From: Scleroderma bovista
Lineage: Eukaryota > Basidiomycota > Agaricomycetes > Boletales > Sclerodermataceae
DNA length: 64,000 nucleotides
Assembly: GCA_037178675.1 (NCBI GenBank)
Contig: JAYMGJ010000671.1
Span: 1-64,000, forward strand
Direction of reading: 5' to 3'
Part shown: one piece after another, positions 12,721-51,567 of the stretch
Position numbering within the stretch: position 1 is the stretch's first letter
Layout: each line of letters opens with the position of its first letter
Translations under genes and position numbers: made by a program
The notes under the pieces: generated by a model
The model's database searches: none
Seen by the model: the letters and a program-made list of their open reading frames with translations, nothing else
What the model was told of the DNA's origin: nothing

Positions 12721-12725
12721 CTACA

Positions 12726-16730: not shown

Positions 16731-16839
16731 TTTTGTTTCATTGCCACAAACTTTGTATTTGTAGTACAATTAGTATCCTTTGTTTGTGTAAGAATATATT
16801 CCTGTGCATGGCTATGATTAAATGTGTAAGTGATCTACT

Positions 16840-18433: not shown

Positions 18434-19195
18434 TACAGTGCTCTAGAACCCTTCTTAGGAACCCTTGCAGAGTACAGAACCTTCTCCCTACTGCTCTAGA
18501 GAAGACTGTACTTGGGGAGCACCAATTTTCATGTTTTTGCCCTACAGAAGCTCAACCCAAGGGATTTGTGACACTCTGTGACCAGCTGTGGCTCTACTTG
18601 TCATTCCAGGCCCCCTGACACTGCTCCTTTGGTCAGATCAATTCTTCTATTATCCCCCAGCCACTCCCATTAGTGGCACTGCTTCAGAAGCTCATCTCCA
18701 GATCTAAAGTTCAATAAATCATAGGTTGTGCTTCCCTTCTTTCTGAGTCACACAGAGTCACTCTGGCTCACTCTGACTCACTCTGCTGCGCATTAATCAT
18801 CCCCTCTTGGCATTACTAATCCCCATTACTCCCCTTATCAATCACTTACCAATCATCCTTCAAATCATGCTTATATGCTGCTTATCAATTCATGACTCAT
18901 GCCCCTATGATTCATATGCATTATGTCATTGCATATGCTCATTTAGCTTCGATCTACTCATCCCATGCTTTCCCCCCCTCTCTTTTGGGCCCCATGCAAT
19001 GATTTTTCCATGTTCTTGGTTATACACCCCTTTGTACCTATGTTTTTGCTCTTTCTTTTGGCTCAGCAGCTTGTTTAGGCTCTCCCCATCGATTACTCAG
19101 CCTGATTACACTGCTTACTGATCGCTTACCAATTCCTTACCAATCTCTTACCAAGCACTTTGTCATTTGTGCTTACTGGGCCACAGCCCCTCCTG

Positions 19196-19250
19196 TATAT
19201 AAACCAGCAGCCAAAGGCTGCAAGGAAGTGTCTGCTTCCCCCTCAATAAA
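19196..19250 (+). promoter_or_regulatory. LTR core promoter and polyadenylation signal
   Basis: TATATAAA at 19196-19203 and AATAAA at 19245-19250 are 42 bp apart, a compact arrangement seen in LTRs. The same pair is present in inverse orientation in copies A and B. This defines the LTR as transcribed left to right here. Confidence 0.6.
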
Positions 19251-19763
19251 GCGACCACATTCACTCTCCCTCACTGTCTATAAGCTCCCTCTCTGTCTTT
19301 GGACTTGTAGGTCACCCAGTGCTGGCCTAAAGCTCCATTATTGCTGTTTATCAGATATACTTGATATCTGATCATTTCTCTAGGCTGAAGCGCAGTCTAG
19401 CTCATCTGTCCACTCTATCCCATCACTGTCCATCGCATTCTTGAAGCAGGAACTGTCCCCTTGCTTCCCCCTTGCTCCATCACTGTTACATCACCCCTAT
19501 TGTCCATCCATCATCGCTCTTCATCCCCAGGACTCTTCCTAACCACTGTGGTAGGCTGAAGAAGAGTCAATCTCATCCCCAGTCGCATATATTCCCCATC
19601 AGAAGCCCTTCCCTTCCCTTCTGCACCTTGCCTGAAGGCGTGCAGCACATCCCCCTCAGGAGATTAGATACCAGATATGCAAAGGAAGACCACCACTCGC
19701 ATACTGCTGTCATTTGGTGTTGGTTGTTGGTTGTTCTGACCTCTTCCCTCACTTAGGCGCACA

Positions 19764-19898
19764 CCGGTATGACAGTGACCGGTTGGTATGCCACCGGTAT
19801 GCTACTGGTATGATAGTGACTGGTCGGTATGCTACTGATAGGACACTGACTGGTCAGTATGCTACCGGTATGATAGTGACCAGTTGGTATGCCACCGG
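19764..19898. repeat. 30-bp satellite, right array (part 2)
   Basis: The repeat unit is about GGTATGCYACCGGTATGAYA followed by GTGACCGGTT, 30 bp in total, with about four copies. Each unit offers two CCGG or near-CCGG sites, and the flanking LTRs are inserted exactly at CCGG. Confidence 0.8.
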
Positions 19899-21999
19899 TG
19901 TCACGCACCAAACAGGTTTGGTACATTGAACATGGAAGATAATGCCTATATCAAATGATCCTTATGTGAAGGATAGGCACGACAGACCCTCATCATAGCC
20001 ATCTATCGCACAAGAAGACTATTCTGATGCAAGAGATGAATGCCAACGCTGACAGTCATCCCTTGCACAAGAACCATCAAGAAGCAGAAGAAACTGAAGG
20101 AATAACGTCATTATGGTATGAGAAAGGAATGCACACCTCTGCAGTCCAACTCCCATATCAGGATGGTCAAAGAAGCCGAAGAATTGATGGAGAAATGAAG
20201 GAGAAAGAGAAGAAATGATTTTTAGCGCCCAAATGTCATTTTTAGGTGCCCAGTGCCGGCATTCCGATATTTTGAATAGCTCCGCCATTTCTTAAGCTAT
20301 CGGGCACGTGACTATACCGTCAGAGAGCCTAGAACGTGGTCTATCTGCCTGTCAAGTTCCGACGTAAATCTGTTCATTTCCCACGGAGATATTCCCCCCG
20401 CAATCCAGACGTTCATCTCATCGCTCACTATGGAGTCCGTATTTTCTCTGGATCGTTTCTCCACTATTGCTGCAGATCTCCACTATGTCCTGCGCTTAGG
20501 ACAGCCTCTCCCAGAGTTCCCGTGCACTGTCTGGCACATATCTTCCCAGCCTGCTCCCTCAGTCCCCCTTGCTCTCGGCCAGCGCGTTCTCCTCGTCAGT
20601 CCTGCATCAAGGATGTACTTTGGTCATCTTAGGTCTATTGTCAAGCTTGAAAAGTCTTCTCTGGTCGTCTCTGTGTCCCCTGAGCCCTCAGCCTATGGTC
20701 CCTTCCTCCCAGATACTTGCCATATCCATCTTCCTCTGTCGTTTGTCTCACTTCCCTGGATGCGTCGAATTCAGTACTCTGTCCGCTTCCCCACTTTCAG
20801 ACGGCATCCCTCAGCATCATGACAGTTATACCCCCCCACTTTATAGTGCTGTTAGGAAGAAGAACCCTCTCTCATTCTTTCCCAGAAGAGAGCTCATCAA
20901 GGGAGCCCATGGTTGTGCTTCAGCGGCACTAGAACATATGCACTATACCTTAGTGTATGCTGACCCCCCCCAGAGACCTCTGGACCCCTGGTACCATTCT
21001 TGTGGCTGTTCTGTCTCAGATCAATTCCCCTATTTATCCCAGATCTTCCCTATTGTTCTCCCATCAAATTCCTGATGGTACACAGCTTCCCATCAAACTT
21101 CTTGGGCAGTGCATCAATGACTTCTTCTGCTGTGCAAGTGACTTATCCCTTGCTTACTGATGCTCTCCTGTCATCAGTATTACTCTATCCCTTTCGCATT
21201 TTTGGTATATTACTCAGCTGATGACCCACTCCCTTACCAATCAGTCTTGTCATGCAGCTTACTCATTCCTTTACTCAGCAGCTTATTCATGCTCCCTATG
21301 CTTACTCATTCCTGCTTATGCCTTGCTTACTGATCGCTTACAAACCCCTTACAAAGCTCTTACCAATCCCTTACCAATCCCTGACAAATTCTGCTTATTC
21401 CCTTCTCTTTTTGTACTTCAATGCTGTGTCCCCCCATGTATTTAAACCCCTGGGCTCAGCCCAGTGAAAAAAAAGGCCCAATAGCACGAAATTATCCCTC
21501 TCTCAGTCTCTCTCAATCAGTATCCCTTCAGTCCTTGAGTCCTTGTAGGCTTCAGTGAAGGTCTAAAGGCTCAATATCTTCAAGTTTATTCAAGTTATTC
21601 AAGTCCAAGTATTTCTCTAGGCTCAAGCAGAGTCTAGCCTGTCTATCCTTCATTCCCCATTGCTTCTGGACATCAGGAGCCCCCTTGCCCCTCTGCTGCA
21701 CCAATCTCTAGGTGTAGTATCGCTACTTCAGTCCCAGCCAACTCAATCCCCGCTTTGACACTTCCTAGGCTTTAGGAAGAGTCTAGACCCCTATCCCCTT
21801 CGTCCTCTATTACTCCTGTACCCCAGGAGTATCCTGCATCACTGTCTGCATCACCCTGTTGGTGTAGATCCCCTCTTCCCCTCCTCAGCATATCCTCTCT
21901 GGACACCGTGGAGGTAAACCACCACTTGCACATTTTTGTAGTCCTTTGTTGGTGTTGTGTTTGGGTTGTTGTTTCGACCTAAACCCACACTTTGACTCA
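19899..21999 (+). mobile_element. Solo LTR, diverged subfamily (copy D, 2,101 bp)
   Basis: It begins TGTCACGCACCAAACAGG and ends TTTGACTCA, with a perfect 4-bp duplication CCGG at 19895-19898 and 22000-22003. The first 930 bp align with copy C; the downstream half has diverged almost beyond recognition, apart from the general plan. A pyrimidine-rich region with ATTTAAACCCCTGGGC near 21440 may be its promoter. The fragment at 29418 belongs to this subfamily. Confidence 0.85.
20430..20822 (+). CDS. LTR-encoded conserved ORF, diverged copy D (130 aa)
   Basis: It starts MESVFSLDRFSTIAADLHYV. It is about 83% identical at protein level to copy C with no internal indel until the last 15 residues, where the ends differ (FRRHPSAS here, SLLSRSKHE there). 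The reading frame is thus the best conserved element between two LTR subfamilies. Upstream in-frame sequence is open but lacks the extra ATG seen in other copies, which supports this start. Confidence 0.55.
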   Translation: MESVFSLDRFSTIAADLHYVLRLGQPLPEFPCTVWHISSQPAPSVPLALGQRVLLVSPASRMYFGHLRSIVKLEKSSLVVSVSPEPSAYGPFLPDTCHIHLPLSFVSLPWMRRIQYSVRFPTFRRHPSAS

Positions 22000-22345
22000 C
22001 CGGTATGCTACTGGTATGACAGTTACTGGTCGGTATGCTACTGGTATGATAGTGATCGGTCGGTATGCCACCAGTATGCCACCGGTGTGACAGTTACCGG
22101 TTGGTATGCCACCAGTATGACAGCTACCGGTCAATATGCTACCAGTATGATAGTGACTGGTTGGTATGCTACCGGTATGACAGTGACCAGTTGGTATGCC
22201 ACTGGTATGCTACCGGTATGACAGTTACCGGTCAATATGCTACCAGTATGATAGTGACTGGTTGGTATGCCACCAGTATGCTACCAGTATGACAGTTACT
22301 GGTTGGTATGCTACCGGTATGACACTGACCGGTTGGTATGACCAA
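22000..22345. repeat. 30-bp satellite, right array (part 3)
   Basis: There are about 11 tandem copies of the CCGGTATG module, alternating GGTATGCTACCGGTATGACA and GTTACCGGTCAATATGCTACC. It follows immediately after the CCGG duplication of copy D. The following 22346-22525 is degenerate AT-rich sequence without a recognisable feature. Confidence 0.85.
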
Positions 22346-22525
22346 TTAATCATTACTGGCCAGTACACCACCTGAATGCCTATCATTAACTTGTACTACT
22401 TGTATAATCATTTCCATTCAGTACAATACCAGTCTTGTCTTTGCTAATACGTACAATCCTGACATGGCTATCATCAGCCTGGACTTGTTTCAAATATTTT
22501 TTCCTCACTGGCCCGACCATACACT

Positions 22526-22782
22526 TATTGTGACACCCACACCCAGGCCAGACTATCCATTATGGTGACACACCTACCCGGCCCGACCATACACTATGGT
22601 GATGCCCACACCCAGGCTGGACTGTACAATATGGTGACACCCCTACCCTGGCCTGACCATACACTATGGTGACACCCACACCCAGGCCAGACTGTATATT
22701 ATGATGACACCCCTACCCTGGCCTGACAATACACTATGGTGATGCCCACACCCAGGCCAGACTGTATATTATGGTGACACCC
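22526..22782 (-). repeat. 70-bp dimeric satellite (array 1, left part)
   Basis: These are tandem copies of a 70-bp unit. On the reverse strand it is made of two related 35-bp halves: GTCCGGCCTGGGTGTGGGTG... and GTCGGGCCAGGGTAGGTGTG..., both containing TCACCATA. It continues at 24014-24590 after a solo LTR. The same satellite occurs in opposite orientation at 60300-61313 and 63657-64000. Confidence 0.85.
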
Positions 22783-24013
22783 TGTCAAGACCAGTTCTCC
22801 TCAACAATCTTACTTGGAGGTCCAGGGGTGCAGGGAACTAATGAGGAGGTAAGTCCTGACACTAGTATGTGCTACTTAGTGCAGAGAGTCAAGTCCAGGT
22901 CATACGGACGAAGTCCGGGCGCTAGAGGAGCACTGGAAGTAAGTCCGGGTTTTGCGGAGTTAGTCCGGACTGCGGGAAAGTGGACCGGATTAAAGCGCAG
23001 TTTGTCCAGACGAAGGACATCCCAGAGGTGGGATAAGTCCTGAGAGGTCTAGCATCGAGTCTGGGACAAAGTTGGCTTTTGCCCTCATGTGAGTAGGAGA
23101 ATTTGCTAGGATCGGACATAGGACCAAGGGGACGAGATAGGACGGAGACCGGAGATGGCTGGAGTTCAGGTGGACAGGTGGACAGATGGACTAAGGGGAG
23201 CATAGTGGGTAGTACAGAGGGAGGAGTATCTTAGTCGAGATTTGATCTAAGGAAACTACTAGGCCGGAGTATAGTAGTTTATATAGTAAATGAGAACTAG
23301 GGTGAGTATATATGGTGACAAGTAAACACCTTAGTTGGGACAAGGGACGGAGCAGAAATGGACAGGAAAATAAACCGGAGCGGGAGCAGACACGGGGAAC
23401 TAGAGATACAGGGACGACGGAGAAAAAGCAGGGACAGTGAAGTAAAGGGAACTAGGTCGGAAGAGGACAGGTAAGGGTTGGAGGTGGACTTAACTAATGT
23501 TAAGTCTGGAGCGATGTCCAGGACCGGAGGAAGTGGGACCGGAGGAAGTGCATGACCGGAGGAAGTGCAAGAGTGGAGGGAGTGCACAGGTGGAGGAAGG
23601 GCAGAGTAGTCGGAGGAAGGTCTGGAGTTGGACATGGAAATGTCCAAGGCCATTGGTGGACCTATCAGGGAAAGCGGAGCAGAACAGGAGCAGACCTGAG
23701 CTGGAGTTGGATGTACCAGCTGGAGTTGGGCTATGTTGCAGACAAGACCAAGGGAGTGGCCGGACTGAAACCGGAGTAGCAACAAGTGGTAGGTACAGGT
23801 TCGACATGGTGGAGTTAGACCGCAGATGTGTCTAGAGGAAGACAGGGGTTAGTCCCGAGGTGGAGATGGACGTAGTGACCAGAGTTGGGCTGGAGTGCAG
23901 CTATGGGGCTGGAGATGGCCAGACTAGATCCGGAGTTGCATCTATGCCTAAGGAGAGGTCAGGCGGGCCAAGGTTAGACCGGAGTTGCAACTGGGAAAAG
24001 TATGGATATGACA
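22783..24013 (+). mobile_element. Solo LTR of a second gypsy-like family (1,231 bp)
   Basis: Ends are TGTCAAGACCAGTTCTCC ... AGTATGGATATGACA. It has a perfect 5-bp target duplication CACCC (22778-22782 and 24014-24018) and is inserted in the 70-bp satellite. It is the same family as 55922-57103. The first 16 bases resemble the chromovirus LTR at 33380, so a related Ty3/gypsy element is likely. Reading frames inside are Gly/Arg-rich and not coding-like. Confidence 0.9.
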
Positions 24014-24590
24014 CACCCACACCCAGGCCGGACTGTACATTATGGTGACACACCTACCCTGGCCCGACCATACACTATGGTGATGCCCACACCCAGGCCA
24101 GACTGTTCAATATGCACCCATACCCTGGCCTGACCATACACTATGGTATCACCCACACCCAGGCCAGACTGTATATTATGGTTAAACTACACACTCTGGC
24201 TGGACCATACACTATGGTGATGCCCACACCCAGGCCAGACTGTACAATATGATGACACCCCTACCCTGGCCCGACCATATGCTATAGTGATGCCCACACC
24301 CAGGCTGGACTGTACAATATGGTGACACACCTACCCTGGCCCGACCATACACTATGGTGACACCCACACCCAGGCTGGACTGTTCAATATGTACCCATAC
24401 CCTGGCCTGACCATACACTATGGTGACACTCACACCCAGGCCGCACTGTATATTATGGTTAAATTACACACCCTGGCCAGACCATACACTATGGTGATAC
24501 CTCCATCCTGGCCCAACCTCATATTATGGTGACAACCCACCCCCAGGCTGGACCATGTATTATGGCGACAATTCCACACACAGGCCAGAT
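24014..24590 (-). repeat. 70-bp dimeric satellite (array 1, right part)
   Basis: It continues the array at 22526-22782. Copies become shorter and more degenerate toward 24590. The edge at 24590-24675 (AAACACGGCCTAACCAGG, then TACATGGGCTCC) has an inverted counterpart at 60250-60300, so the two distant arrays share one edge. Confidence 0.8.
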
Positions 24591-24689
24591 CATATATCAC
24601 AGCAACACCCTGTAGTCCGGCCTGACCCCCGCTGGCCATAAAACACGGCCTAACCAGGTACATGGGCTCCAGCATCATCCAACCATGAC

Positions 24690-25440
24690 TACAACATGTT
24701 GTCCACCACCAACGTGACAATGACAATGACAACCACCAGCATTGATGGTGATGACAACGACCCCAGTCCCCCAATTCCAGCATCATCTGACCACAACTAC
24801 AACAACAACATGTTGACCACCACTACCATGATGCATTGGCCACACCAATGCAGCCACTACAGGTTCAATGGTGACAAAAACAACAACAACAACAACACAA
24901 GTCCCCCAGCTCCAGCATCGTCTGACCACCACCAACGCGATGGTGACAACTCGTCCTCCAGCTCCAGCATTGTCCAACCACAACCACCATGCATTGGCCA
25001 CCATGTGTCCAACAGCAATGGTGATGACCCCAGTCCACCCAGCTCCAGTGTTGTCTGACCATGACCATGACACATTGGCCACCACCAATGTAATGACAAT
25101 GGTCACCACACATCTGATGGCAATGACAACACCAGTCCCTCCAGCTCCAGTGTTGTCAGACCATGACCACGACCACAATGCATTGGCTACCACCAGTGCT
25201 GCTGCCACATGTCTGCCACCACCAATGCGACAATGAAGGCCAGTTGATGATGATGACCATGACCACAACTCATTGACCACAACTACCACCATGTGTTGAC
25301 CACCATCACTACCACCACATGCTGGCCACCACTACCACAACCTGTCAGCCACCACTACCACTATCATGTCTGTCACTACCAATCTGGCCATGATGGCCAC
25401 TACCCATGTGTCAACACCACCAAAGTGACAATGATGTAGT
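24690..25440. repeat. CCA/CAT-rich minisatellite
   Basis: It is low-complexity DNA with recurring CCCAGCTCCAGCATTGTC, TGACCACCACCAA and ATGCATTGGCCACCA modules of about 45-90 bp. The open frames it gives (Thr/Asn/Pro-rich, or Trp/Val/Gly-rich on the other strand) are products of the repeats. A similar composition, reversed, appears at 31600-31870. Confidence 0.65.
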
Positions 25441-25555
25441 ATATACTTTGTATATTTTGTTGAAATGATAGCTTTGTGTACTATTACTTGAATATTGATA
25501 ATATAAGAGGGTCAAAATAATTTGAATGTCTGACATGCTAGGAAACTGCTATTTT

Positions 25556-26000
25556 GTGATGGACTGACAGTCTGACAGTCAAGAACCTGATAAGTTCTGA
25601 CAAACTGAGAATAACTGGCCATCTGATAGTTTGGCAGTCTGTGAGCCTGATGTGCTGAGAATAACTGATAGTCTGGCAGTCTGAGTATCTGATGGTCTGA
25701 AAATAACTGGTAGTCTGAGAATATCTGACCATCTGGTGGTCTGAGAATAACTGACAGTCTGATGGTCTGACATCTGCCAGTCTGAGTACCTGATGTTATG
25801 AGAATAACTGACAGTCTGGCAGTCTGATTACCTGGTAGTCTGATAATAACTGGTGGTCTGATAATAACTGGTGGTCTGATGGTCTGACAATCTGACAGTC
25901 TGAGAAACTGCTGGTCTGATATCAGAAAGGTCCATTTCTGAGTGTCTGACCAACTGGTGGTCTGAAATTTTCTGAGAATGTTTGATATCAGATTTTTTCA
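25556..26000. repeat. CTGA-type minisatellite
   Basis: It is an irregular array of ACTGACAGTCTGGCAGTCTG and TGAGAATAACTGRTGGTCTG units, about 20-30 bp long. There is no coding signal. It lies next to the 3' end of the Plavaka remnant. Confidence 0.75.
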
Positions 26001-26109
26001 ATTGGCCAGATTTTTTCAGATTTTTTCAGACCTTTAGAACTTTTGTCAAGTTGCTGATGTATCCCAGAAGTATTAGTGCTGAACATTGACAGACAGAAGG
26101 GACTGACTG

Positions 26110-28883
26110 ACCTTTACAGCAGGGTCATCAGAGTTGTGCACTTGAAATAGCACAATATTTTCAGGAAAGTTTTGTGACTGCCCAATAGTGTGGTGTATAT
26201 CAGGCCTATTTGGCATGGGATCTTGATGATAAGCATGCAAAGCAGCTAACTTAGTTCAGATCTGGTGAATTCATTCTTGGCAGCACTTGATAGATACCAA
26301 TTAGGGGATAAATGCTTTGCGACTCATTCTAGTGAACCTACTTTTTCCAACATGGTGCTTGAGTTCTCCCTGCCAGAGTTTAGTCATGAGGAATGATGCA
26401 ATGGAAGTCACACCAGTTGTGTTGAAAAGGAGTCCATCATACTGAACATCTTGATCTGATCATGATAATCCCCAAGTGCGTGTACCTTGTAAGTGCAGAG
26501 GTTCAGCGTTTTTGGCTGGCACACATTCACTGCTGGGGAATAGGCCATTTTGGAAGGGCCCCCTTGAGCCTTTCTTCATCATCGAGACTCAGCTTCACAG
26601 TGCAATTCTTTTGTTGCAAAGGTTGGGCATGTTTCAGGAAAAAAGTTGTGCATTTGCTGAGCCAACTGTGCAGTTGTGTGTTCCATAATGTTGAGAATGT
26701 AGTCTGTGTGCACGTGGAGCTTTGCAAGGGCATGCCAATGACATAACAAGAACAGAAGCTGCTGAACCTGAGAGTTATGGGGCTCAGGAAGGAGATTCTT
26801 GAAAACCAGAAGAGCACACTGCCATACAGAAACCATTAGAAACTGGACTGGCAATCATCTAAAGAAGTCGCACCTGCAGTAGATCCTCAAAGTCTCAAGC
26901 AGTCATCTTCTTCAACTCCAAGCAATTCTCCTGAAAGTGGCAGATTGTGTCTTGCCCAAAAGTGGGAACTTGACAATATCTAGTGCTTATTAAGCTTGGC
27001 AAAATATACAAATATTTCATGCTTACTGTTTGTCCATTTCTGAAATCTGAGACTGTTTTAAGGTCTCAAGGATCCACAGTAGATGAATAAAAATGGCTTT
27101 CCATACTCCTAACTCAAATTCATGCAAAAGGTCAACAACAAACATGACAAATAGATCAAAGCCAGTATGGCTGGCTTAACTTCTCTGAAAAGGCATTCTG
27201 CTTGTGTCATCATTAGCTCAACATGATGTGGCATAAACCTCAATGGCAGACTGTTGTTGGGACCAGTGGTTCATCCTTCAAAAGCTCTGCAACTTGCATC
27301 CCATCCACAGCATAATGCTTCTCATATATTAGTTTGCGAGCTGACATGATTTTTTCATGGTGGTGGGCAGTGTCAGAGTGAGATAAAAGCCTGCATTGCA
27401 GTAGGTCTGATTCCATGGTGAGAAGATGAGCACAAGATTTTGGAATAAGACACCAAGGGCATGGGCATTTTCCCAAGTTCCTGATGGTCACAATTAAAAC
27501 TCCGAATATAAGTCATGTTAGCTAATGGTATCAGAGAGTAACACAATCACATACTTTTCTGGATAATCAGCAGAATAAGTGAATATTTGAGGATATATGT
27601 GATGCTTGACTTGGTCCTGGCAAGTTATCACGATGCCATGTTCATATGCTTCCAGGAACTCATCATCCAGAAGGATATGCCACTGTGCATGGAAAAACTC
27701 TCTGCAACAATGAGTTAGGAGGGCATCACTCAGCTTTTCTCCTGACTGCTCCATCACAAAATCCTTGAATGCAGCTGGAGGCTATTCTCACAACAGTGAT
27801 GGTTAGCAGTTGAACCCACAGAAGGTAACTCACTGATTGGAAGTAGGCAACATGAGAACATAGGTTTGAGCTTGGTTTGCAGTGCATGTACTTTGACTGG
27901 TTACCAAAGTAGAGGTAAAGTGGCCAAAGCTTTGCACTCCCGAACAAGGTAAGCTGTGTGGCATCCGACCAGAACATGAGCACTGCAATACAACATGGTA
28001 AGTCACAGTCAGGTTTGCAAGGTGAAGCTAGGAGTTGTTCTTGAGCTTTGATGAAAGCATCCAACATGTACAGTTCTCCATGGACTCTAACGTCATGGGC
28101 TTTGTTCAGTGGATGCCACCAGAGCTCATAAGGTTCATAATGGTAGATACAGTGGTGAAATGGATCTGAAAGCTTATTGCAAATGATTGAAACCAGATGA
28201 TGGTGATGAAAGTCCAGAACTGTATAGTCACAGGGACCTGGATTTGGCGTCTGGCAGTGAAAGGGGATGGATATTGTGATAGGTGAGCGACTCCAGCCAG
28301 TGCTAGCCTCTTGTCCATCATCTGAACTGCTTCCCAACTCCTTGTTGATTGCCTTCCAGTTGGTATTTTGGACATCATCTGGATTGTATTCTAAATCTCC
28401 AATAATATCCAGAAGAAGCTTGAAGTTTTCATGAGATTCCTGTGGCCTGTGGTTCCAATACCAGTCACCTAGTTGCAATGAGCTTTTGTTTGGATAGGGA
28501 TGGAATGGGTTGTCGGGTGCAGAGGTGATGGCTGGTATTGAGGAGTTGGCGGTAAAAGGCAGCTGGGACAAGTATGTCTGCATGTTGGTGGATTGCTTGT
28601 CAGGATCATGAGAAGGAAGTCTGATGTTGGACCTAAACATGTGGACAAGACCAAACTTATTCAGTTGAGTCTTGAACATTGACCAGGATACTGAAACTGG
28701 TGGTGTCAGATGTGACAAGTGAGATTCAGATGCTCCTTGGTTGGATGGGCCTTCCAACAACTGTACTCCAAGCAGAGGAAGTGGCATAGGACTTTCAGGA
28801 AGCATGTCATGAAAATGAAGAGGTAGCTGACAATTGAGCCAATGTGGTCTCCATTGTGCCAAGGGTAGCACCTCATCTTCCAA
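26110..28883 (-). pseudogene. Plavaka-type DNA transposase, multi-exon, decayed
   Basis: The first large exon (27830-28883) contains HYEPYELWWHPLNKAHDVRV, LMFWSDATQLTLFGSAKLWP and SKYMHCKPSSNLCSHVAYFQ. After an intron follow KDFVMEQSGEKLSDAL-like sequence (27518-27757) and TIRNLGKCPCPWC ... SARKLIYEKHYAVDGMQV (27240-27491). Then GFDLFVMFVVDLLHEFELGV appears in another frame (27075-27175), then NLLPEPHNSQVQQL ... HALAKLHVHTD (26579-26800), and last HHTIGQSQNFPENIVLF (near 26180). These are core motifs of the basidiomycete Plavaka family. Frame breaks and a TGA at 26895-26897 make it a pseudogene. Terminal repeats were not identified. Confidence 0.85.
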
Positions 28884-29417
28884 CTGCAGGGCTTCAGGTG
28901 TATGATTTCTGCAAGGGATCTATGCCAACTTGGTCAGAATGACAAAACTCAATCCCCACACATACTGGTTCAGAATGGGATATGTTATCACCATCATTAG
29001 TGCTTCCAATGCTAGGCTAGATCACCTCAGTCAGAATGGCGAGATTTAATAAAAATATTCTAGCACATACTGGTTCAGGATGAGGCAGGACACTGTCACC
29101 CTCAACCTGTTCTGCTTGAGCTTCTCCCAAGCCCATTCACAATTTCTTTTGTTGATATACCTCCTTAGATAGCACTCCAGAAGGCTGTTTCTTTCCTTTT
29201 GTGCACCCCCGTTTGTGCTTGGTGAAGTCAGAAACACAGGAGAAAGAGCAGCCACAGATGCAAGTCTGGAAAGATTGTTTGGCCATTGAGCCTGCCATGA
29301 GCTGTGATGAACCTGAAATTGCTCAGTCTCAGTTCCACAGGAGTGTTTAAGGCCTACCACTGGGGCATGGAAATTTAGTTCACAGCCACCCAAATCTGAG
29401 CTGGTGTTGTGGCCCGG
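28884..29417. other. Region upstream of Plavaka, no clear gene
   Basis: A minus-strand frame at 29046-29423 (125 codons) may hold a decayed N-terminal exon of the Plavaka gene, but I recognise no motif and no splice signals that join it. Nothing else is visible. Confidence 0.3.
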
Positions 29418-29759
29418 TGTCACGCACCAAACAGGTTTGGTACAGTGAACATGGAAGATAACACCTATATCAAATGATCCTTATGCAAAGGATAGGCATG
29501 ACAGACCCTCATCATAGCCATCTATCACACAACAAGACTATTCTGATGCAAGAGATGAATGCCAACGCTGACAGTCATCCCTCACACAAGAACCACCAAG
29601 AAGCAGAAGAAACTGAAGGAATAACATCATTATGGTATGAGAAAGGAATGCACACTTCTGCAGTCCAACTCCCATATCAGAATGATCAAAGAAGCTGAAG
29701 AATTGATGGAGAAATGAAGGAGAAACAGAAGAAATGATTTTTAGCACCCAAATGTCATT
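29418..29759 (+). repeat. Truncated LTR fragment (copy F, diverged subfamily)
   Basis: It begins TGTCACGCACCAAACAGG and follows copy D for 342 bp, ending abruptly at AAATGTCATT. The left flank is CCGG (29414-29417). The flanking host sequence is duplicated imperfectly: 29371-29416 and 29760-29804 share about 40 of 45 bases. Confidence 0.85.
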
Positions 29760-32700
29760 AAATTTAGTTCACAGCCACCCAAACCTGAGTTGTGTTGCAG
29801 CCCAAGCCTGCGGGAAAAATGGAGTTTGACAGTAGCAAGCAAAGCAAGTGACGATGAGCTCAGTGCCTGGTGCTGGCATGATGAAGACAGTGAATGACAT
29901 TGCAGCAGTGACAGTGAGTAGTAGTACTCATAGTACTACTAGTTGACTTTCTAAAATAGCTGAGGCATGAGGTGTCTCATAGAATATACTAAGTACTTAC
30001 TACTACTATGTAAGACTGAAAATGCACAACAACCATGATAAGTTTGGAACCAAGTTCATGTAATAAAATATGGTAACTACTACTATTGGTCCATGTCACA
30101 CATTTCACAGTAAAGAGGGTGTTGCAATGTGTATTGCAACAATATATACACACCATGGTAGTATCTAAATCACAACCTCATAGTAGTATTGTATCGCCCA
30201 TCCTGCATCTTGTTGCTGTCATCATCACTGCTGGTGATGGTGATGGTGATGGTGATCAGCATTCATTGTTGCTGCTGTGGGCATGTGCATGTGGCATGTC
30301 ATTGTTGACAATGAGGCGTGGTGGAGGTGGAGAGGGTGGTGGCGAGACGGTGAGGAGGTGGTGGTTGGCATCTCCTGGACGTTTGTGGGATTGTTGGCTG
30401 GGCTGTCATTCATATGTCTGGCACTGCACTCACTCATGCTGGCTTTGAGGGCATTTGCAGGTAAGGCTAGGTCCATGCTTGTGTTCCAACTGACTGGGCG
30501 GTCGCATTATGACTGCGATCTGTGGGTGATAGTCCTCAAGTGGATGTTGTTCCAGTGAAGGAATGTTGATGAGATTGTCAAAGAATGCCCTTATTCAATT
30601 AGGTGGTGGCACTGTTCTAGATGTCGTAAATAGTGGAGGTTGTCATCTGCAAGAAGCTAGGGCTGGCATGAGAATGTGAAGTGTCATTTGGGTGATGCCA
30701 AGGGAGGGAATGTAGGATGAGATGTCAATGTCATCTTTGTCTCCATTCTGAGATTGATAGCAGGATGCAAGGATGGGTGGTGGTGGTGGGTGGTAGTGCA
30801 GAGGGTTCTGAGGAAGTTGGATTGCATTGGCGGCTATGTGTTTGAGCACATAGCTTGATATCAAATGAGATGAGCTCTTACCCTTTCCAAAATGGCCCCA
30901 TTCACCAGCTGTGAGCTGCACAGCATTGATGACCAGCACCTCTGCTGCTGTTCTCCATGCCAATTCACATATGGTCTCATCAAGAACATATTCGCCACCT
31001 TCCATGGGACAATACAGGGCAAGGGTAGGCATATGGGGATGAAGAGCGATGTGTAGATTCGTTAGTGTGTCATCAAATTCTGGCAGGGGTAAAATATTAT
31101 TTCTCTGAGTCCAATGATGGTAAGTCATGTGGGAGCCAAAGGATATTGAGTCCTTATGGGAGCTGGGGTCTATCATCTGGATCTGACTCCCTGTCTCTCT
31201 GAGTGGACATATTAGATGTGCTGCTCACCGATGTTTTCATGTGTCGGGGTGGTTTCTCTGTCTCAGAGGGCAGGATGGGGGGACTGTCAGGATGTGGTGG
31301 AGAGTCTGTGTTGAGCTGGATTGGAGATTGCTCAGCATCCTGGGCAGACTTTTGGGCAATGGAGTGTGGACACCAGAAGACTGTCTTGCAGGGCTGTTGG
31401 GATCTGAGGTGTTCCTTGGCACCTTGGTGCGTGCAAGTTGGGTTGGGATGACGAGTCTTGTGTTTCCATGTACCCTCTGCATTGTTGTTTGTGTGGTGAG
31501 CCAGCTGTCGCATTGCATGGTGGCAGCTGTTGTCATTATTGTGGCTGACTGCATAGCAGTGTCACCATTACCCATGATCATGTTTCATTGTTGTTGTTGT
31601 TGTGACATCTTTGTCTTACTGGCATGCACACATTGATGTGCTGTTGTTGTTGCCATCTCACCATGGCATTGGCCATTGGTGTCATGTCATTGTCATCTTC
31701 ATTGTGCTAGCACAGACACACTGTCACCATTGGGGCACTGCAGACATGTCATCATTGTGCTAGTGTGGACATGTTGATGCACTATTGTCATGTTGTTATG
31801 TTGCCATGGCATTGGCTATCTGGCCAGTGGTGATGCACATCACATTGTCATTGTTGTTTGATTGAGGGCACAAATGCTGACATGGACATATCAAATGCAA
31901 AGCTGTAAAGGTCAGTGAAGTGCAAGAAAGCGACATGACTTACCTGGGTACATGCAGCCACCCAGAAACCAGTCGAAACGTACTTGTGGGGTCATTGGAC
32001 ACAGGCATCGACACATCGGAAGCTTGAAGATGTGAAGAAAAGTACTGTGGGTGCTGCAGGTTCTGGATGGCCACATGACCCGCACCTGTTTATTAACTAA
32101 TCAATGTTGACCATGTGTTGCTGGCTGCAGGAAGGCAGTTGAGGTGCTAGTGGTTGGTGGTAGTCATCATCTTTGCACTGATGTAAGTGGCCAACATCAC
32201 TGTCATCATAAGGATGGCACTTACTGAGTTCATCACTGATGGTAGCCTTACCTAGCTAAAGAAAAAGACCTGGTGGAAAGAGATGGGAAGAGATACCAGT
32301 GATCAGATATGCATGAGATGACACAGATACATACATTGTAGTAGCATACACTGTAGTAGTACTTGGATTGCCATTAGCATTGCTCTACACCTCGGGGCGC
32401 TCAGCTGATGGGAGGTGGATAGTGATGTAATGAACATTGAATGGATATATGTAGGTACAGGGGGGATGGTTGGGCAAAGCCCTGAGGGCTTCCAGCCTGA
32501 AACAAGTCACAGGGGAAAGGCTGAGCTGTGAGGGTGGGCTGGGACACTGAGCAGGTCAGCTGGAACTGATCCACCAGAGGTGAGTGGGATGCATTGAGTG
32601 GGAGACAAGGGGAGTGAGCAGAAGGATGCAGGGAGCTCCCACGAGGACCTGAGAGAGGGAGTGGTGCAGTGGGTGCAAAAGAAAGGCTGAGCTCATTGAA

Positions 32701-33035
32701 TGGTGGGGGCCACAGCCTTTTGGTCTTGTGGTGTGCAACAAGCAGGAAAGAGAGGCACCACACTTCACTTACCTAATGTGTAGACTAAATTCTATGCCAC
32801 TCAGCTAGAATTTTTGTTTGTATCTGTGTGGCACACATGTTGAGCCTACATTTTCATCAGGAAATTGGGGAAGAAATGATATTTCCTGATACACATTATA
32901 AACATACATCAGAATGATATTGTAATATACCCAAATATCAGCAATTAAACACCCTTACAATTGAACTAGTGTAACTGAGTACAATGATCAAGTGCATATT
33001 AGAATGGTTTATTGTAGGTAATGCAGGACAAACAT
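29760..33035. other. Mostly anonymous sequence with low-complexity ORFs
   Basis: Repeat-like TAGTACTAC-rich sequence occupies 29920-30010. A run of TGGTGATGG at 30220-30260 gives a His-rich shadow ORF. TTG/CAT-rich low-complexity DNA occupies 31540-31870, and a Pro/Ser-rich minus-strand frame lies at 32401-32763. Two overlapping minus-strand frames (30643-31513) look more gene-like and are listed separately. No transposon ends were identified. Confidence 0.4.
30643..31513 (-). pseudogene. Hypothetical gene remnant (two overlapping frames)
   Basis: The frame at 31154-31513 (Pro/Ser/His-rich, ending SDPDDRPQLP) overlaps the frame at 30643-31176, which is of more normal composition (MTYHHWTQRNNILPLPEFDD, GKGKSSSHLISSYVLKHIAA). 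A one-base shift or a small intron would join them. I do not recognise the family. It could be a remnant of a transposon-borne gene. Confidence 0.3.
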
Positions 33036-33270
33036 GGCATCTTGTTATCTTTGATGGTCTATCTTCCAACAGAGTTGCAGAGCCTGGTCATCTTGCTATC
33101 ATTATGTGTCCCACATATAATCAATTATAGTTAATCTGCCAGAATGGCATCCCACTTATATTTAATGGTCTATCTTTCAACAGAGTTGCAGAGCCTGGTC
33201 ATCTTGCTAACATCATGTTTCTAGCATATAATCAATTATAATTAACCTGTCAGAATGGCATTACACTTAT
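33036..33270. repeat. Tandem duplication, unit about 110 bp
   Basis: There are two full copies and the start of a third, beginning GGCAT at 33036, 33146 and 33257. Each contains AACAGAGTTGCAGAGCCTGG and CATATAATCAATTATA. The copies differ at several sites. Confidence 0.8.
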
Positions 33271-43707: not shown

Positions 43708-45170
43708 CTAGACACTAGTGTTGCCGCAGTTCCGGTCAAAAGCCAGTTTGTAACCAAAACTATCATGTGGTTTAAACCAAACCAATGTAAACAAGACCCT
43801 GGGAATGTCCCAATTTGGAACTGATTGGTTAAGTCCTGGTTTCAGTTTATAACCGGTCTTTGACCATACCCTGAGTCCTACTCATAATGCTTAGCGCTAC
43901 CAGTGACCAGTGACCAGTGACCACACATAATACGGTTCAACGTTGCAACCCCATACGAGAATGCCGATCCGTGCTTGCAAAGCATCAGTGATGCTTATCA
44001 TCCGGGGTCACCCGGTACCTCATTCCTGGCAAGTGGGATTTCTTGACCACACCGTAAGGTCCTATCTCACAGTTCATAACTGATTTCCCTAATCGCCTAG
44101 CTCGCCCATCATCTGCACAGTGCACTGCAAGAAATTTTCAACTACAGTTCATCTCGGGTATGGCTGACCTGCGTAGGTCATAGGTACACCCCCACTCATG
44201 ATGCTGAAGATGACAACTGTGACGACTGACATGTGGCACACTCCCCAGTTCCCACCGCCTCTGGCAAGTAGATTTCTTGTGCTTGTCCTCAATAGCGGCT
44301 GACAAACTTTGTTTCTTTGACTTGAACCAACATCTTTTGTGTGCGACACTAAAAGCTATGATGGTATGACCTGTTTTTCTCTCTTTCCCATCACAATCTC
44401 ATTCTGCATATCCCTCTAACTTGTGCCGCCCCAGGGAGCTTGGCCGACGACCAAATGGACTCCTATTGCCATTGAGTCCACACAATAAGTACTATGTACT
44501 ACTTAGTACGTACATATGGCAGTCATGATGCGTGCCATTGAAGACACTTTGCAGAATGTGGCATGGCTGCCGACTGATGCAGTCTATTTTAGATCTTGCT
44601 TTGGGCAAAGATGGGCCCATGATTCCCTGTTCAGTGGAATAGGAGGTGCTTACCGATCAATGCTCCATTTTCGAAGAACGTAATGTGGGAGCCGCTTCTG
44701 CTTGTAGTGCCCTCTGCAGAATGGTACCGTGGGCTGGAGAAACATGCGGTAAGTCCTGGTGATCTGTGCTTGGACCCCTTGCCCTGGTTCACCTGTCACT
44801 CCAGGAGTTCACTTCTCATTGCTGTAGTATTTCATCCATACACACCTGACCTCTACCATGGCAAACAACATTACCCTTCGATTCAGAGTAGCTCATTGCA
44901 AATTTGCGATAACCGCTGTGGTTGCATTGGGGGCCAGGTAATCGGTACGATACGATCTTGATTCTCGAATCTTGATTATCAATTTGTCATGACTTACCTT
45001 TTTTTTTACAACATTCGGAGCTCCACACCCGCTGTGCGCTATATAGATCATTTGACCATCAATGGGGCTTTTGGCCTCATGTCTGGTTTTATATTTAGGT
45101 GCACAGTTCTAGTGCCCGCCTTCAGTTATATATACGATTTGACTTGGGTCCTTTCACCCTAGAACCCATC

Positions 45171-48100
45171 ATGTCTCGAGAATGAACCCAGCCATCCCGG
45201 CGTGGTAGAAGTGTCCGTCGTGGTGGCAGTCGTGGCCGTTGTGGCCAGGGTGCAACTGTGTTACCTGATCCCACAGCTGATCAAGACGAGGTCTTCAACC
45301 TTGATGACCTGTCTGATTCTGACAGCACTGCCACACCGCCCCTTCCGTTGCCCAATGACACTACCAATATGGGCACCGCTGGTTCTGACAACACTCTTGT
45401 CACTCCAAACTCCAACGTCACTGCCGATCTTCTCATGGGTACATCGACGTTGGGAAAGGTGCCCGATATTGATCATTTCTTTGACAAACGACCCAGTGGG
45501 TCTACGTGTAAAGTGTGCAAGTACGTCAATAACTAGTGGCTACTATTTAGAATAATGTACTGACTCACTTCCTAGTCATTACTACAAACCAAAAACTGGT
45601 AACTCCAGCCTTCGGCCACATATCAGTGCGTTCCACCTGGAGGAGTATATCCGGGAGGCTGAAAAGCATGGGTGGCTGTCGGGCGAGTTGTATGTCAGCC
45701 CAGTTCGTGAAGCTATAAAGAAAGGATACACGATCTCAGAAATCAAAACCCGCTTTGAAGCTGGGGAGGACCTCTATAACCTCAAGGATCGCAGGAACTC
45801 CAAGGACAACCGTCCTCATACCAGTGATCGTGACCACATTCCACCCTATTCCATGACAGACTTCCAACAGTATCTGGTGAATTTCATTGTTGCCGATGAC
45901 CAGGTAAGTGTACATATTGTCGCTGTGAGTCCTTGCTGATTTTTCATAGTCCCTTAATGTGGTCAAATGTCCAGAATTCCGAAACCTTCTCCTACTTCTA
46001 CGAGAGTCGCTTAAGGACTTAGATATTCCGCACCGGACTCATACGCATGACCTCATCATCAACCAATGGTACCAATCTTTTCTCGAGCTGCAGAAAAGCA
46101 TGAAGGTATGTGAAACTGCTACAAACTCACAAACGTCTCCTGACCCATTTGAAGGGGGCGCTTGGCAACATTTCCTTCACAACCGACATATGGTCAGACA
46201 GCAACCTCAAGTCGTACCTTGCCATGACCGGCCACTGGATAAGTGAAGATCCCACCACAAAGGTGCTACATCTCGAGTGCGCCCTCGTTGCCTTTCATCG
46301 GCTGAGGGATCGCCATACGGGCGAGTCGCTTGCAAATACAATTTTATATCTTCTTGACAGGATGAATGTCACGGATAAAGTACGCACTCTCTCTTCAGCA
46401 TCGTACCTAGATGTTTAACTGTATTACAAATAGACTGGTCACTTTACTATGGACAATGCCGAGAACAACACCAAGTGTGTCTGGAAGCTTGGTGACTTGT
46501 TGGCAGAGCGAGAGTTTGATATCGCATTCGATCCTGATCAACGTTGCATTATGTGCCATCCCCATTTGATCAACCTCTGTGCTAAACACGCCTGTGAAGG
46601 CTTTACGAAAGTCGACGTCTCCGAAATCGAGCGGACGATCACCACCCCCATAGTTCAGCAGCATGCAACTACCACCATGCCGGTGGATGAACATGTTAGC
46701 AAAGAGGCATACATACGGGCTATCCAGAGCAACCCACTCGACAAGGCCCGTGCTCTTGTCCGTGCAATCCGCGCGTCAGGTCTGTGGTGTGAGGCATTTC
46801 AGGAACGGATCAGGGTGGGGAATGCACAGGGCTGGCATAAATACCCTCCTGCGACACAGGTCCCACTTGTTGAACTTTTGCGTGAAGTTCTCACACGCTG
46901 GGACACCATTTTCTTTCTGCTCAACCGACTGAGAATATTATGCCCAGTACGTTATTCCTGTGTTGATTTTACACTTGCGTACTGATTACTTTGAACCAGG
47001 CTATAGACTACTTTGTCTCCACACCTGAGTGGTATGAAGACCTTGGTGACTTGAAACTTTCACCTGCGGAGTGGCTCGTTCTTTCCGACTTCGAAATCAT
47101 TTTAAAGGTATGTACTATGTATCACCGTCTTCATAATAAGCCACAACTGATCCTTTACCAGCACACGCACCTCATACAACAAACATTGTCATCTGAAAGT
47201 CAACCACGTCTTAGCCACACTACGCCAATCTTCGAACTCCTCATGTCCTCTTGGGAGAAAACTGCGAGTGAGATTCCCCACCTCAAGCCATGGATTGACC
47301 ATGCCCTCGGCTGGGTATATAAATACTACAAGCATATGGACAACAAGGATGCCTACGTGCTTGCTATGTGTAAGTTTCATACATAATTCTTCTTACTGCA
47401 TCATTTACTCTGAAGTAGTTGTTGATCCCAATGTTCGCCTCAAGTGGATCAAACGTTGTTGGGGCACTGACTACGTCAAACGTGCCGAGGATTTGATTTT
47501 GAGGACAGTAAGTCATTATATAATACATTGTGTCGTCTTATTGAATGCTGCTAGATGACAACATATCACGAGGCAAAGAAAATACATGATTCGGGTACCT
47601 CTGAAGTGCAGCCAGGATCGCACTCACTTGATAGACTTGTGGAGGATCTCGGCCTCAATTCACTCAGTCTCAACCCCATGTCCACTGAACAGGGCATACA
47701 GACAGTTGAGCAAGAATACCACAAATACATTAGCGCTGAGCAAGATAGATTTGAGTGCAATCCATTCAAATATTGGGAGGTACGTTTTATTTACTATCTG
47801 TATCAGCATGAATGACTTGATATTAATGGGCCTCTGAAGATCGAGCGCAATCTATTCCCAACAGTATTTCTTATGGCCATGGATTATCTGCCCATTCAAG
47901 CCTCATCGGTCCCATGCGAGCATGTCTTTTCATCCAGCGCCGAGACTGACACAAAGAAACGTAACCGTATCGGCCCTGTTCTCATGGAGGCCTTGCAAAT
48001 GCTGAAGTTCTCTTTGAAGAAATTGCGTCTCAACTTCACTGAAGGATGGCAGATGGACTACAATAGTATTCTTCATCAGGATGACCCTGATATTGTTGAT

Positions 48101-48196
48101 GTTGGACAGGGTCAAAATTTGAATATTACGACTATCAAATCTATTGTGGACAAGGAGGATACAACATACATGAGCCAGGTGGTAGTCTACAATTAA
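45171..48196 (+). CDS. hAT transposase, about ten exons
   Basis: The first exon (45171-45520) has a TGA as codon 5 (45183-45185); a downstream in-frame ATG near 45369 could serve instead. A BED-type zinc finger is formed across the first intron (CKVC ... LRPHISAFH). Further exons give HTHDLIINQWYQSFLELQKS, NISFTTDIWSD (first catalytic Asp region), GHFTMDNAENNTKC (second Asp region) and MCHPHLINLCAKH. The last exon holds the hAT dimerisation domain LPIQASSVPCEHVFSSSAET with KRNRIGPVLMEALQMLKFSL. Introns are about 45-60 bp with GT..AG. A TATA sequence lies near 45128. Apart from codon 5 I see no damage. Confidence 0.85.
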
Positions 48197-48319
48197 TTTC
48201 ATACTGTCATAGACTCGTAGTTACTTCAGCATTGTACTATGTAGGTTTTGTCTGCAAGTTGCAAATGAATGGTCGTTACCACATGTTCAATTGATCATGC
48301 ACCAACTCCAATCGCCCGC

Positions 48320-49668
48320 CATTCCCAGCATGGATCTTGATTCTTGACTATATTCTTCCATTTGCTGCTGTGCCAGAGGATGGCCGCAAGATCGACGGGC
48401 TCAACAACAAATCCAAGCTTGCTCACTGCATCATGCTTTTCAATTTGTTGCGCACACTCGCCGCTCAAGAGGCAAGATGGACTCTGAGAGCTTGACCAGA
48501 TACTTGGTTGGCAGCCTGGCACTGTCATTGGGTAAGTAAATGCTGTTGATCGCGATCCAAATCTGACTCAGGTGTTTTCCAGATCATTTGGACCCACAGC
48601 ACATGAGTGCTACCAATACAGTCGCCCAAGAACTCGAGACACACGGTGTTCACACATTCTCCACTCGCCTTTATCCTTGGTCTGACTCTGACACACCCAC
48701 TCTTCTTCAGCATCACCCAAGTGCTCCATCGTGCTATTACCTGCGACAATGCAGTTGATTTCAAGGTTATCAATGGTACTGAGGGCAAGCATGTCCTTCA
48801 GTCGGTCAACCGTCAACGTTGTCCCGCGTGCAAACTTCAAGTTCGATTTCCCCGCACTTGAATCCACCTCCACGCTCGAGCAACTAAGCAAAATGAGAGG
48901 TATTTACAGAAAGTTGTCGTCATCACCAGTTTCGCTGAAGCTGGGTAGTTCGTGCACACGATGGGACCCTCAAGGACGGTACTCTGCACATTGGCTGGGT
49001 GGATCCCAAGACTGGTGAGCCCATGGATGTTAGAAGTTGTTATGAGAAGGACATCCTTACTCGTCACGGTGCTGGTGTTCATTTGATTGGTGAGTACATC
49101 TTTGAACCGAGCCAGATTACCACTAAGCAATTGCATAGAACCTGAACTATTGTGTCTTCCCGATGATATCATCGCACAGACAGATCGCACCTTGCTATGC
49201 GCCCTTGTCTGCATCGCCGAGGCCCTCAATATGTTCGGCATTACCAATCCTTCCAAGTTGTACAAGCATATACATCCATGATCCCTTGGAAGCCAGCACC
49301 TGTATTGGTAGTGGTATTGGAGGTACGTTGGGAATGGTGTTCAAGGATCGTCGTCACGACTCACGAGGACGTACAGAATGATATCCTTCAGGAAACGTAA
49401 GTCGCTTGGTGATTGGATGGGCGGTTTTCTGAGCGTAACCTTCAGCCTTCAGGTTCATCAACAGCACAGGATGGATCAATCTTTCGCTTCTGTCTTCTAG
49501 TGGTCCTGTCAAGATTCCCAATGGTGCCTGGTGAGTACTGTGTTCCCATTGCTATTCCATATACTCAAGACTGAACATCTCTGCAACTGCCTTGCAGTCC
49601 TTTAAGATCACAGGAGGCTTTGACGATATCAGTGACCATGAATTCACCATGGGCAGTGTGTACTAGTA
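48320..49668 (+). pseudogene. FAS2: Internally deleted fatty acid synthase alpha (KR-KS region) cargo
   Basis: Successive pieces match fungal FAS alpha in order: [20 protein letters not shown] (48353-48415), SATNTVAQELETHGVHTFST, FFSITQV, CDNAVDFKVINGTEGKHVLQ, NVVPRANFKFDFPALES (48810-48870), GWVDPKTGEP-like and YEKDILTRH-like sequence in shifted frames (48990-49075), EALNMFGITNPSKLYKHIHP, SGIGGTLGMVFKDRRHD, LSSSGPVKIPNGA and GGFDDIS (49618). The family continues between some of these where here there is none, so parts are deleted. Frames change several times and stops occur. The intact enzyme makes long-chain fatty acids in the cytosol; this copy cannot. Confidence 0.85.
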
Positions 49669-49935
49669 TGGGTCGCAACCCACAACTCACGAGCCGACTG
49701 AGATGTCTCGTCCAGCTACTACTACGTGTGCAGGGGTACATGTGCAGGGGGTACATGGCAGTGTACACCGAAACTTATTACTGGGCACATAGTCCATGGA
49801 ATCACAAGGGACTGGTAGATCTCTACCTCGTATCTACAAATCCACTGCAATGTAGACATTGTGACTAGTCATGTCTGGAATCTGTGACTCTGTGACTGTT
49901 GACTTTGGACTCCTTCACTTGCGGTTCCCATCCTC

Positions 49936-50019
49936 GTTCCCCAGCTCTACCTGTCGTCCACTCGTTCCCCAGCTCTACCTGTCGTCCACTCGTTCCCCAG
50001 CTCTACCTGTCGTCCACTC
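49936..50019 (+). repeat. 28-bp tandem repeat, three copies
   Basis: The unit is GTTCCCCAGCTCTACCTGTC then GTCCACTC. It starts at 49936, 49964 and 49992 and lies 20 bp upstream of the kinase ATG, so it may be in the promoter or leader. Confidence 0.85.
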
Positions 50020-50038
50020 ATTCCACCGAACGACTTTC

Positions 50039-51179
50039 ATGAAATTACCGTTGGATGCCATTCGCATTGCTGGGTGTTACAAGATTGAGGACTATGTTGG
50101 AGGAGGCTCATACAGTAAGAAATTTTAAGTTCAAGTAGGGTTGAAGCACTGATGTTCGTCTCAGGTGATGTGTACAGTGGCCAGCAAACAAACAGCCAGA
50201 TAAATGTTGAAGTTGTTATCAAGATTGCAAAGAGCAGTAGGGATGCTGCTGCTCTAATCAAAGAACATCAGATTCTCGAAAATCTTCACGACGTTTGTGG
50301 GATCCCAAAAGCCCTCTGGCTAGGACACGAGGGCGAACTTCATGTCATGGTACTTGAGCATTTAGGACCTTCACTTGCAGCTCATTTTCAGGCATGTGAA
50401 CAAAGGTTTTCTCTCAACACTGTGACACTCATCGCGACACAACTGGTGAGTTAAGAATTAGAAACATGGATATCCGCAAGTACTAATCTACCATGGTCAA
50501 GCTTTCATATCTGCAAAATGTCCATTCCCGCAACTATATTCATCGCAACATAAAACCTGCCAACATCCTGACTGGCACACAAGATTCCCCGAACATGGTT
50601 TACCTAGCTGACTTCGGTATCGCCAAACAATACCATCACCCTAACACGCACATACATATACCCTTCTGCGATGGTATTCCCCTCACTGGCACCCTTGCAT
50701 TTGCATCTATTAACAGTCACATGGGTGCTGAGTTGAGTCGACGTGATGACGTCGAGTCGCTTGCGTATGTCCTGATTTATTTCCTTCGGGGTTCTCTTCC
50801 ATGGTTGGGCGCTGGCGATGTAGACAGAGTCCTTCAACTTAAGCAGGGGACTCACGCAGATCGCCTATGTTCTGGGTTGCCGGGTGCCTTCAAACTTATT
50901 CTCGAACATTCCTGTGCACTTGCATTCACTCAGAGGCCAGACTACAATCTGCTCCAATCCTACATCTATGATATTCGTGCAACGCTACCAGATCCTAATG
51001 ATACTCTTTTCGATTGGCACCACAGCCATCTCATTCCATCTTCCCCCGCTGCTGCCCCAGTCACCTCAAATGGATGTGTCCGATCTCACAAGCAAACTAT
51101 ACCTGCAACAGTCGGTTCTGTGCCAACTAGTACAAGAGTGTACATATTCCCAGTCTCCTTTAAGTTTGACTCAATTTAA
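50039..51179 (+). CDS. Casein kinase 1-like gene carried by the hAT element
   Basis: Exons are 50039-50114, 50165-50445 and 50502-51179, giving about 345 residues. The glycine loop is VGGGSYSDVYSG, the lysine motif VVIKIAK, the catalytic loop YIHRNIKPANIL, the metal-binding loop LADFGIAKQY, and SRRDDVESLAYVLIYFLRGS is the CK1 signature. The catalytic loop has HRN in place of HRD (AAC at 50547-50549), a G to A change at CpG on the coding strand, which would be expected to abolish or lower activity. No stops or frameshifts. CK1 enzymes phosphorylate Ser/Thr; why a transposon carries one is unknown. Confidence 0.85.
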
Positions 51180-51567
51180 TACTGAATATTATATACCTAG
51201 ACTAAGACCCCGGATTTTGAAATCACCAAAGCCAACGTGCTCCCTTTCATTCAAAAAGCATTGTATCTGACTGTTTGTAGTATTGTACCAGTACTACAGT
51301 CTACAGTACTCAGCCTGTTTTCGAATGTATCATGTATGTTGTACCATGTAACGCAGTCAAGCTGGTTAAGACTGGTCTTAACCGGTTCCTAACCAAATAA
51401 ATATTTGTTTGGTTGTCAGTGGTCAATAACTATAAACAACAGTTTGGTTTGGTTACTGAATTACAGGTAATGGTTTGATCTGGACCAATTCGACTTGATT
51501 ATATAATAGCTGCCAAATCTGGCAACTGGTTTCGGTTTAACCGGACCGCGGCAACACTACTAGACAC

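Follow-up and report, generated by a model that had tools for sequence, protein, structure and literature searches.

DNA transposons that keep an accessory gene beside their transposase include Harbinger, which pairs its transposase with a Myb-like protein, MuDR, En/Spm and the fungal KDZ elements with TET/JBP genes; to our knowledge, none of these accessory genes encodes a protein kinase. Elements of the hAT superfamily, such as Hermes and Ac, are, as far as we know, mostly single-gene, and fungal cut-and-paste transposons are said to have been surveyed by Muszewska in 2017. A search of the open-access literature found no transposon encoding a CK1 kinase named in the titles and abstract openings. 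Here we describe a hAT element in a 64,000-nt stretch of the Scleroderma bovista genome (contig JAYMGJ010000671.1, positions 1 to 64,000; the whole stretch is called the window, and its contig C670), which we compared with the rest of this one fungal genome (51.8 Mb, 850 contigs). Like Hermes and Ac, the element has an 8-bp target duplication, short inverted ends, a PF05699 region and a match to Hermes in the PDB; unlike them, it belongs to a group in which several subfamilies carry a second gene, for a CK1-like kinase. In keeping an accessory gene beside the transposase, it is like Harbinger, MuDR, En/Spm and KDZ. We think it likely that the element belongs to a two-gene hAT lineage in which transposase and kinase are both maintained and the kinase helps the element. 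The findings below indicate that this lineage maintains the kinase as its second gene, not as a one-off passenger, and they hint that the element uses it.

The kinase gene of the window copy (50039..51179, + strand; exons 50039-50114, 50165-50445 and 50502-51179) encodes 344 amino acids in a frame that is open across all three exons, as originally predicted, though the catalytic Asp is replaced by Asn at codon 135 (50547..50549, + strand; HRN for HRD). The protein is close to CK1 delta and HRR25: its closest PDB match is CK1 delta (4kb8, E 3.2e-66, full-length kinase domain), it matches PF00069 (6e-20) and it shares the SIN stretch of the delta/epsilon/HRR25 branch of the casein kinase 1 family, from which it differs in being transposon-borne and in the replaced catalytic Asp. 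Of the catalytic Lys, HRD Asp and DFG Asp that mark a CK1 kinase, K45 and D156 are present, and residue 135 is Asn.

First, CK1-like kinase genes lie close to one group of hAT transposases far more often than expected. With the window kinase as query, 50 search rows merged by gene into at least 31 loci, a search with one transposase exon gave 28 rows at no fewer than 25 loci, and Pfam matches (PF05699) marked at least 81 hAT places. Twelve of the 31 kinase loci have a hAT transposase no more than 8 kb away, all at 2.7–5.5 kb, where 0.85 would be expected; with the PF05699 list alone the count is 8 of 31, where 0.78 would be expected. The corresponding binomial probabilities, 1.6e-11 and 7e-7, assume independent loci, an assumption that copies related by descent violate. 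A kinase is near 12 of the 25 loci found with the window transposase, compared with 0 of the 63 PF05699 places outside that set, and because the co-location is confined to one transposase group we reject the explanation that these genes are chance neighbours. A second transposase query placed 12 loci with a kinase among its best 18 (E to 6e-21) and still 12 among all 31; the cut of the lineage at 18 loci is our own choice, made after the kinase places were known, and the next five loci (C8, two on C36 and two on C480; E 2e-16) have no kinase. A second kinase query added loci on C645 and C35, contigs on which no hAT place was found, and both stand outside these counts.

Second, the kinase lies inside other bounded copies. 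DNA search found it on C415, C285 and C142, on each with a related transposase upstream on the same strand, at roughly 67–73% DNA identity to the window copy; between C285 and C142 themselves, identity is 97% over 6 kb. The C415 element is bounded at 33185..9882 by matching 8-base flanks, CTTGAAAT, and the C270 element is complete at 17468..25526 with CTGTGAAC on both sides. Each has the kinase inside, so that three copies, counting that of the window, have ends and a perfect duplication enclosing the gene. Short terminal inverted repeats are common to several copies: C285 has a right end and C142 a left end, their opposite ends not being found within the stretches examined, and the right ends of C163, C270 and C5 are similar to one another. 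At C163, no left end was found within 2 mismatches in 26000-36162. A transposase exon of C285 contains a stop that is absent from C142, and one of C415 contains a short insertion. The original prediction, that one hAT copy had captured both a fatty acid synthase (FAS2) piece and the kinase, holds for FAS2, which is seen only in the window copy and the host gene; the kinase, by contrast, stands beside a related transposase at 11 further loci (C415, C285, C142 and eight more), two of them in bounded copies, which refutes a private capture for the kinase; we regard a private capture of both as scarcely credible. Capture of the two together in one recent event was rejected, since other copies have the kinase and FAS2 was not found there.

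Some further observations concern these copies and their ends. The 23-kb C415 element was considered as a giant cargo element and rejected as such, much of its extra length being repeats shared with other contigs. A 3.2-kb stretch, C240:54773-57961, is 99.3% identical to C415:7000-10189, which includes the right end and flank of the C415 element, and by its sequence appears to be a recent segmental copy. The first 345 bp of the window element recur at C708:55631-55287 with 97% identity, in a stretch that adjoins a 2.1-kb repeat; no partner end was found within the 15 kb examined. At C8:100982 and C314:178316, kinase and hAT matches stand at an identical spacing of 17,559 bases, pointing to either a duplicated segment or two haplotypes. 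Three units of 204–236 bp resembling miniature inverted-repeat transposable elements (C17:96616-96819, C47:3476-3711 and C300:160703-160937), found among 30 pattern loci examined, share the element's 12-base ends and are flanked by 8-bp duplications, which are perfect in two units and have a mismatch in the third; they were perhaps mobilised by this hAT group.

Third, kinase and transposase have diverged together. For 11 of the 12 paired loci (C75 was left out), one kinase exon and one transposase exon were compared, and their identity matrices are correlated with a Mantel r of 0.91, reached in 0 of 20,000 permutations; without the near-duplicates C142 and C270, r is 0.82, reached in 2 of 20,000. 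Both genes group C670 with C415, C285 and C142, C5 with C371, C163 with C270, and C500 with C664, and C26 falls beside C163 and C270 in three kinase and three transposase trees, the transposase support being weak (59–72). The three kinase trees, two from codons and one from amino acids, are concordant. The two genes have therefore descended jointly within subfamilies; related pairs are present in five or more diverged subfamilies, with joint divergence in the four that have two or more members.

Fourth, the kinase was constrained while the copies diverged. Estimated by the Nei–Gojobori method from one exon of each gene, the ratio of nonsynonymous to synonymous change (omega) of the kinase is 0.19, 0.16, 0.18, 0.23, 0.14 and 0.10 in six non-recent pairs, which share sequences and have a synonymous divergence (dS) of 0.55–1.95. 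It is 0.11 for C285/C142 and 0.69 for C163/C270, and three between-subfamily pairs are saturated. Transposase omega is 0.05–0.14 in the non-recent within-subfamily pairs with finite dS (1.07–3.17, partly saturated). Decay between C285 and C142 is strongly CpG-directed: 174 of 183 substitutions are transitions, 162 of them in CpG, TpG or CpA context. The ratio of observed to expected CpG is 0.32 in window positions 1–33000, 0.66 in the element and 1.00 around the host FAS2 gene. Because such transitions might by themselves account for the excess of silent changes, the kinase count was repeated on transversions, which gave ratios of 0.20, 0.12, 0.14 and 0.08 in the four of seven pairs where the result is significant (p from 0.0023 to 2.4e-6). 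Among the C285/C142 transitions, silent and amino-acid-changing ones number 12 and 5 in the kinase and 6 and 8 in the transposase, a hint that of the two genes only the kinase is still constrained there, but these changes are few and are offset by C163/C270, and we do not use them. The Asp of the HRD motif is kept in 10 of 11 kinases, the window copy being the exception. Between copies, both kinase and transposase were under purifying selection, with at least one recent pair showing no constraint in the kinase. The suggestion that selection acts on the kinase is upheld between copies, by omega and by transversions, and is not supported for the window copy, which has lost the catalytic Asp.

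A number of observations weigh against a two-gene lineage, and we set them out with the explanations they favour. At 19 of the 31 CK1-like loci, the 8 kb on either side contain no hAT transposase. Five near-identical transposase loci (two on C1, and C12, C181 and C193; 98–100% over one exon) have no kinase match on their contigs; a C1 locus, examined over 209500-217836, has a transposase and a right end and no kinase match. This kinase-less branch seems to have spread recently. At C34 there is no kinase match within 8 kb of the transposase. Some relatives, then, do without the kinase. The two genes lie on the same strand in all four copies of the window's subfamily and head-to-head in the other 8 loci. 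Over 46 between-subfamily pairs, kinase and transposase identities are uncorrelated (r 0.07). When each subfamily is represented by a single locus, r is 0.25, 0.18 and −0.06, which 23, 42 and 63 of 120 permutations, respectively, equal or exceed. Of the three transposase trees, only the codon tree without C1 has the topology of the kinase tree; the codon tree with C1 and the amino-acid tree put C500 and C664 beside C5 and C371, and support at the deep transposase nodes is 35–72. The idea that the two genes came together only once, long ago, was accordingly weakened on checking, because the correlation arises inside subfamilies and the tree that includes C1 differs.

These observations leave room for repeated capture, in which genes of a host CK1-like family entered hATs of this lineage on several occasions and were inherited together with the transposase only within subfamilies. 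The lack of correlation between subfamilies and the change of gene orientation between the window's subfamily and the rest both fit this explanation, as do the kinases away from hATs, mostly at 36–47% identity to the window kinase and about as distant from it as are the hAT kinases of other subfamilies. On the other side, the 63 other hAT places have no kinase match beside them, so that capture would have to favour one lineage, and C26 joins C163 and C270 in both genes and in all trees, albeit weakly for the transposase. We consider repeated capture possible, though a good deal less probable than a two-gene lineage; it does not conflict with selective maintenance of the kinase within subfamilies.

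Other contrary points concern decay of the kinase itself. Judged from its sequence, the window kinase is CK1-like and probably catalytically dead. Stops interrupt the kinase exon in 3 of 11 copies (C371, C163 and C500). Only 3 of 11 retain the Arg of HRD, the DFG Asp is missing from C371, and C26 lacks the catalytic-loop Lys. On transversions only, C500/C664 gives 0.37 from 6 changes (p 0.24), C285/C142 and C163/C270 have one change each, too few to tell, and C163/C270 shows no constraint in either gene. The loss of the catalytic Asp in the window kinase, the interrupted exons, the unconstrained pair and the kinase-less branch at five or more loci would all be expected of a neutral passenger, carried without use. 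We hold this explanation to be improbable in view of omega values of 0.10–0.23 in six pairs, transversion ratios of 0.08–0.20 in four of seven and the catalytic Asp kept in all but one copy; as with the transposase, recent decay may reflect the ageing of old insertions.

If the kinase is indeed the maintained second gene of a hAT lineage, it would help the element most likely by phosphorylating the element's own transposase or the host machinery of break repair and meiosis, and phosphorylation would let excision happen at a safe time. Host kinases can tune transposon activity. For a kinase retained by a transposon, the simplest proposal is an action on the element's own protein or on how excision breaks are repaired. 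One candidate for its target lies in the N-terminus of the transposase, ahead of a zinc-finger-like part: a short acidic motif around a Ser, of the type FFDIDDxS and variable among copies. Inspection by eye showed it in all 7 copies whose N-terminus was read, in five distinct forms: VFNLDDLS in the window, YFDIANVS in C285 and C142, FFDTTNVS in C415, FFDIDDHS in C163 and C270, and FFNIDDMS in C5. Acidic neighbours of Ser suit CK1 or CK2. That the kinase, as a standing second gene, controls transposition by phosphorylating this motif, making the element a self-contained, phosphorylation-gated transposon, is a tentative proposal that we rate well below the maintenance of the two genes. An alternative role would direct the kinase at the host, acting on host signalling, for example by favouring nuclei that carry the element. 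In its favour, kinases of the CK1/HRR25 type have roles in DNA repair and meiosis, and the kinase is a separate gene with its own introns; against it, kinase-less relatives persist. We think this proposal rather unlikely.

The hAT transposase gene of the window copy (45171..48196, + strand) was modelled with ten exons (45171-45520, 45576-45903, 45950-46105, 46155-46379, 46434-46946, 47000-47107, 47162-47369, 47419-47507, 47555-47779 and 47840-48196), their splicing being predicted by hand from the sequence. The joined frame is interrupted only by a stop at codon 5, just past the first ATG; a later ATG could serve for translation. The C-terminal dimerisation region of hAT transposases, PF05699, whose part in the last exon lies at 47843..48010 (+ strand), scores above the family cut-off (9.4e-12), and the PDB match is the Hermes transposase (1.1e-5). 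TTDIWS, MDNAENN and CEHVFS may hold the usual catalytic D, D and E positions. With Asn for the catalytic Asp in its kinase and an early stop in its transposase, the window copy looks worn.

The whole element spans 43716..51559 (+ strand; 7,844 bp), from a left terminal inverted repeat, TAGTGTTGCCGC (43716..43727, + strand), to its reverse complement at the right (51548..51559, − strand), and is flanked by a perfect 8-bp target site duplication, CTAGACAC (43708..43715 and 51560..51567), equal in length to those at C415 and C270. The 428 bases of its joined flanks match two places at 90% identity, each in one alignment that runs across the junction at 196/197: C721:29481-29875 (query 1-395) and C287:134596-134970 (query 19-395). 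The target duplication and these two empty-site relatives prove the insertion and, together with the transposase, confirm that the window holds a real hAT unit with inverted ends. The possibility that the inverted repeats are due to chance is not dispelled by the repeats themselves, the 12-mer end with up to 1 mismatch occurring 232 times in the genome and 186 times when the pattern is read backwards, which makes it weak evidence for the bounds on its own; the insertion stands on the duplication and the empty sites. Directly left of the element, frames in window positions 42379-43346 resemble, by eye, a decayed gypsy-type reverse transcriptase; 42379-43236 gave no Pfam match.

Between the two genes, and on the same strand as both, lies the relic of the middle part of a FAS2 gene (fatty acid synthase alpha; 48316..49840, + strand), recognised by similarity to the host gene. 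It aligns with C164:31304-29183 in six collinear blocks of 74–83% identity, has lost internal stretches as long as about 260 bases and contains no long open frame, which bears out the description of a FAS alpha mosaic with internal deletions inside a hAT. A host exon within the matching stretch finds FAS alpha in the PDB (2.2e-86); this type I FAS alpha gene and the short introns are those of a fungus. As read from the alignment with the unannotated host gene, both retain intron-like stretches that begin with GT and end with AG, and the piece was therefore taken as DNA. In a DNA search of this genome it matches only the window element and the host gene, with no match on the contigs of C415, C285 and C142. 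A DNA-level host piece with introns kept and in single copy, it has the marks of a Pack-type captured fragment and resembles the ordinary DNA-level captures, introns included, of Pack-type plant transposons and fungal Helitrons. In those elements captured pieces are transient, unlike the kinase described here, which is present in several copies and constrained. Fungal Helitrons with captured genes are the subject of a paper listed among the references of PMC4905642. In the window copy, this portion of FAS2 entered between transposase and kinase. The differing histories proposed for a ruined FAS2 part and a kept kinase frame are confirmed, FAS2 being in this copy only and the kinase in others.

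An element with its own selected kinase in several subfamilies, and with one branch that lacks it, would offer a natural plus/minus system for the timing of transposon movement. Kinase-bearing hATs may also help to explain why CK1-like genes are so numerous in this genome, at 31 loci or more.

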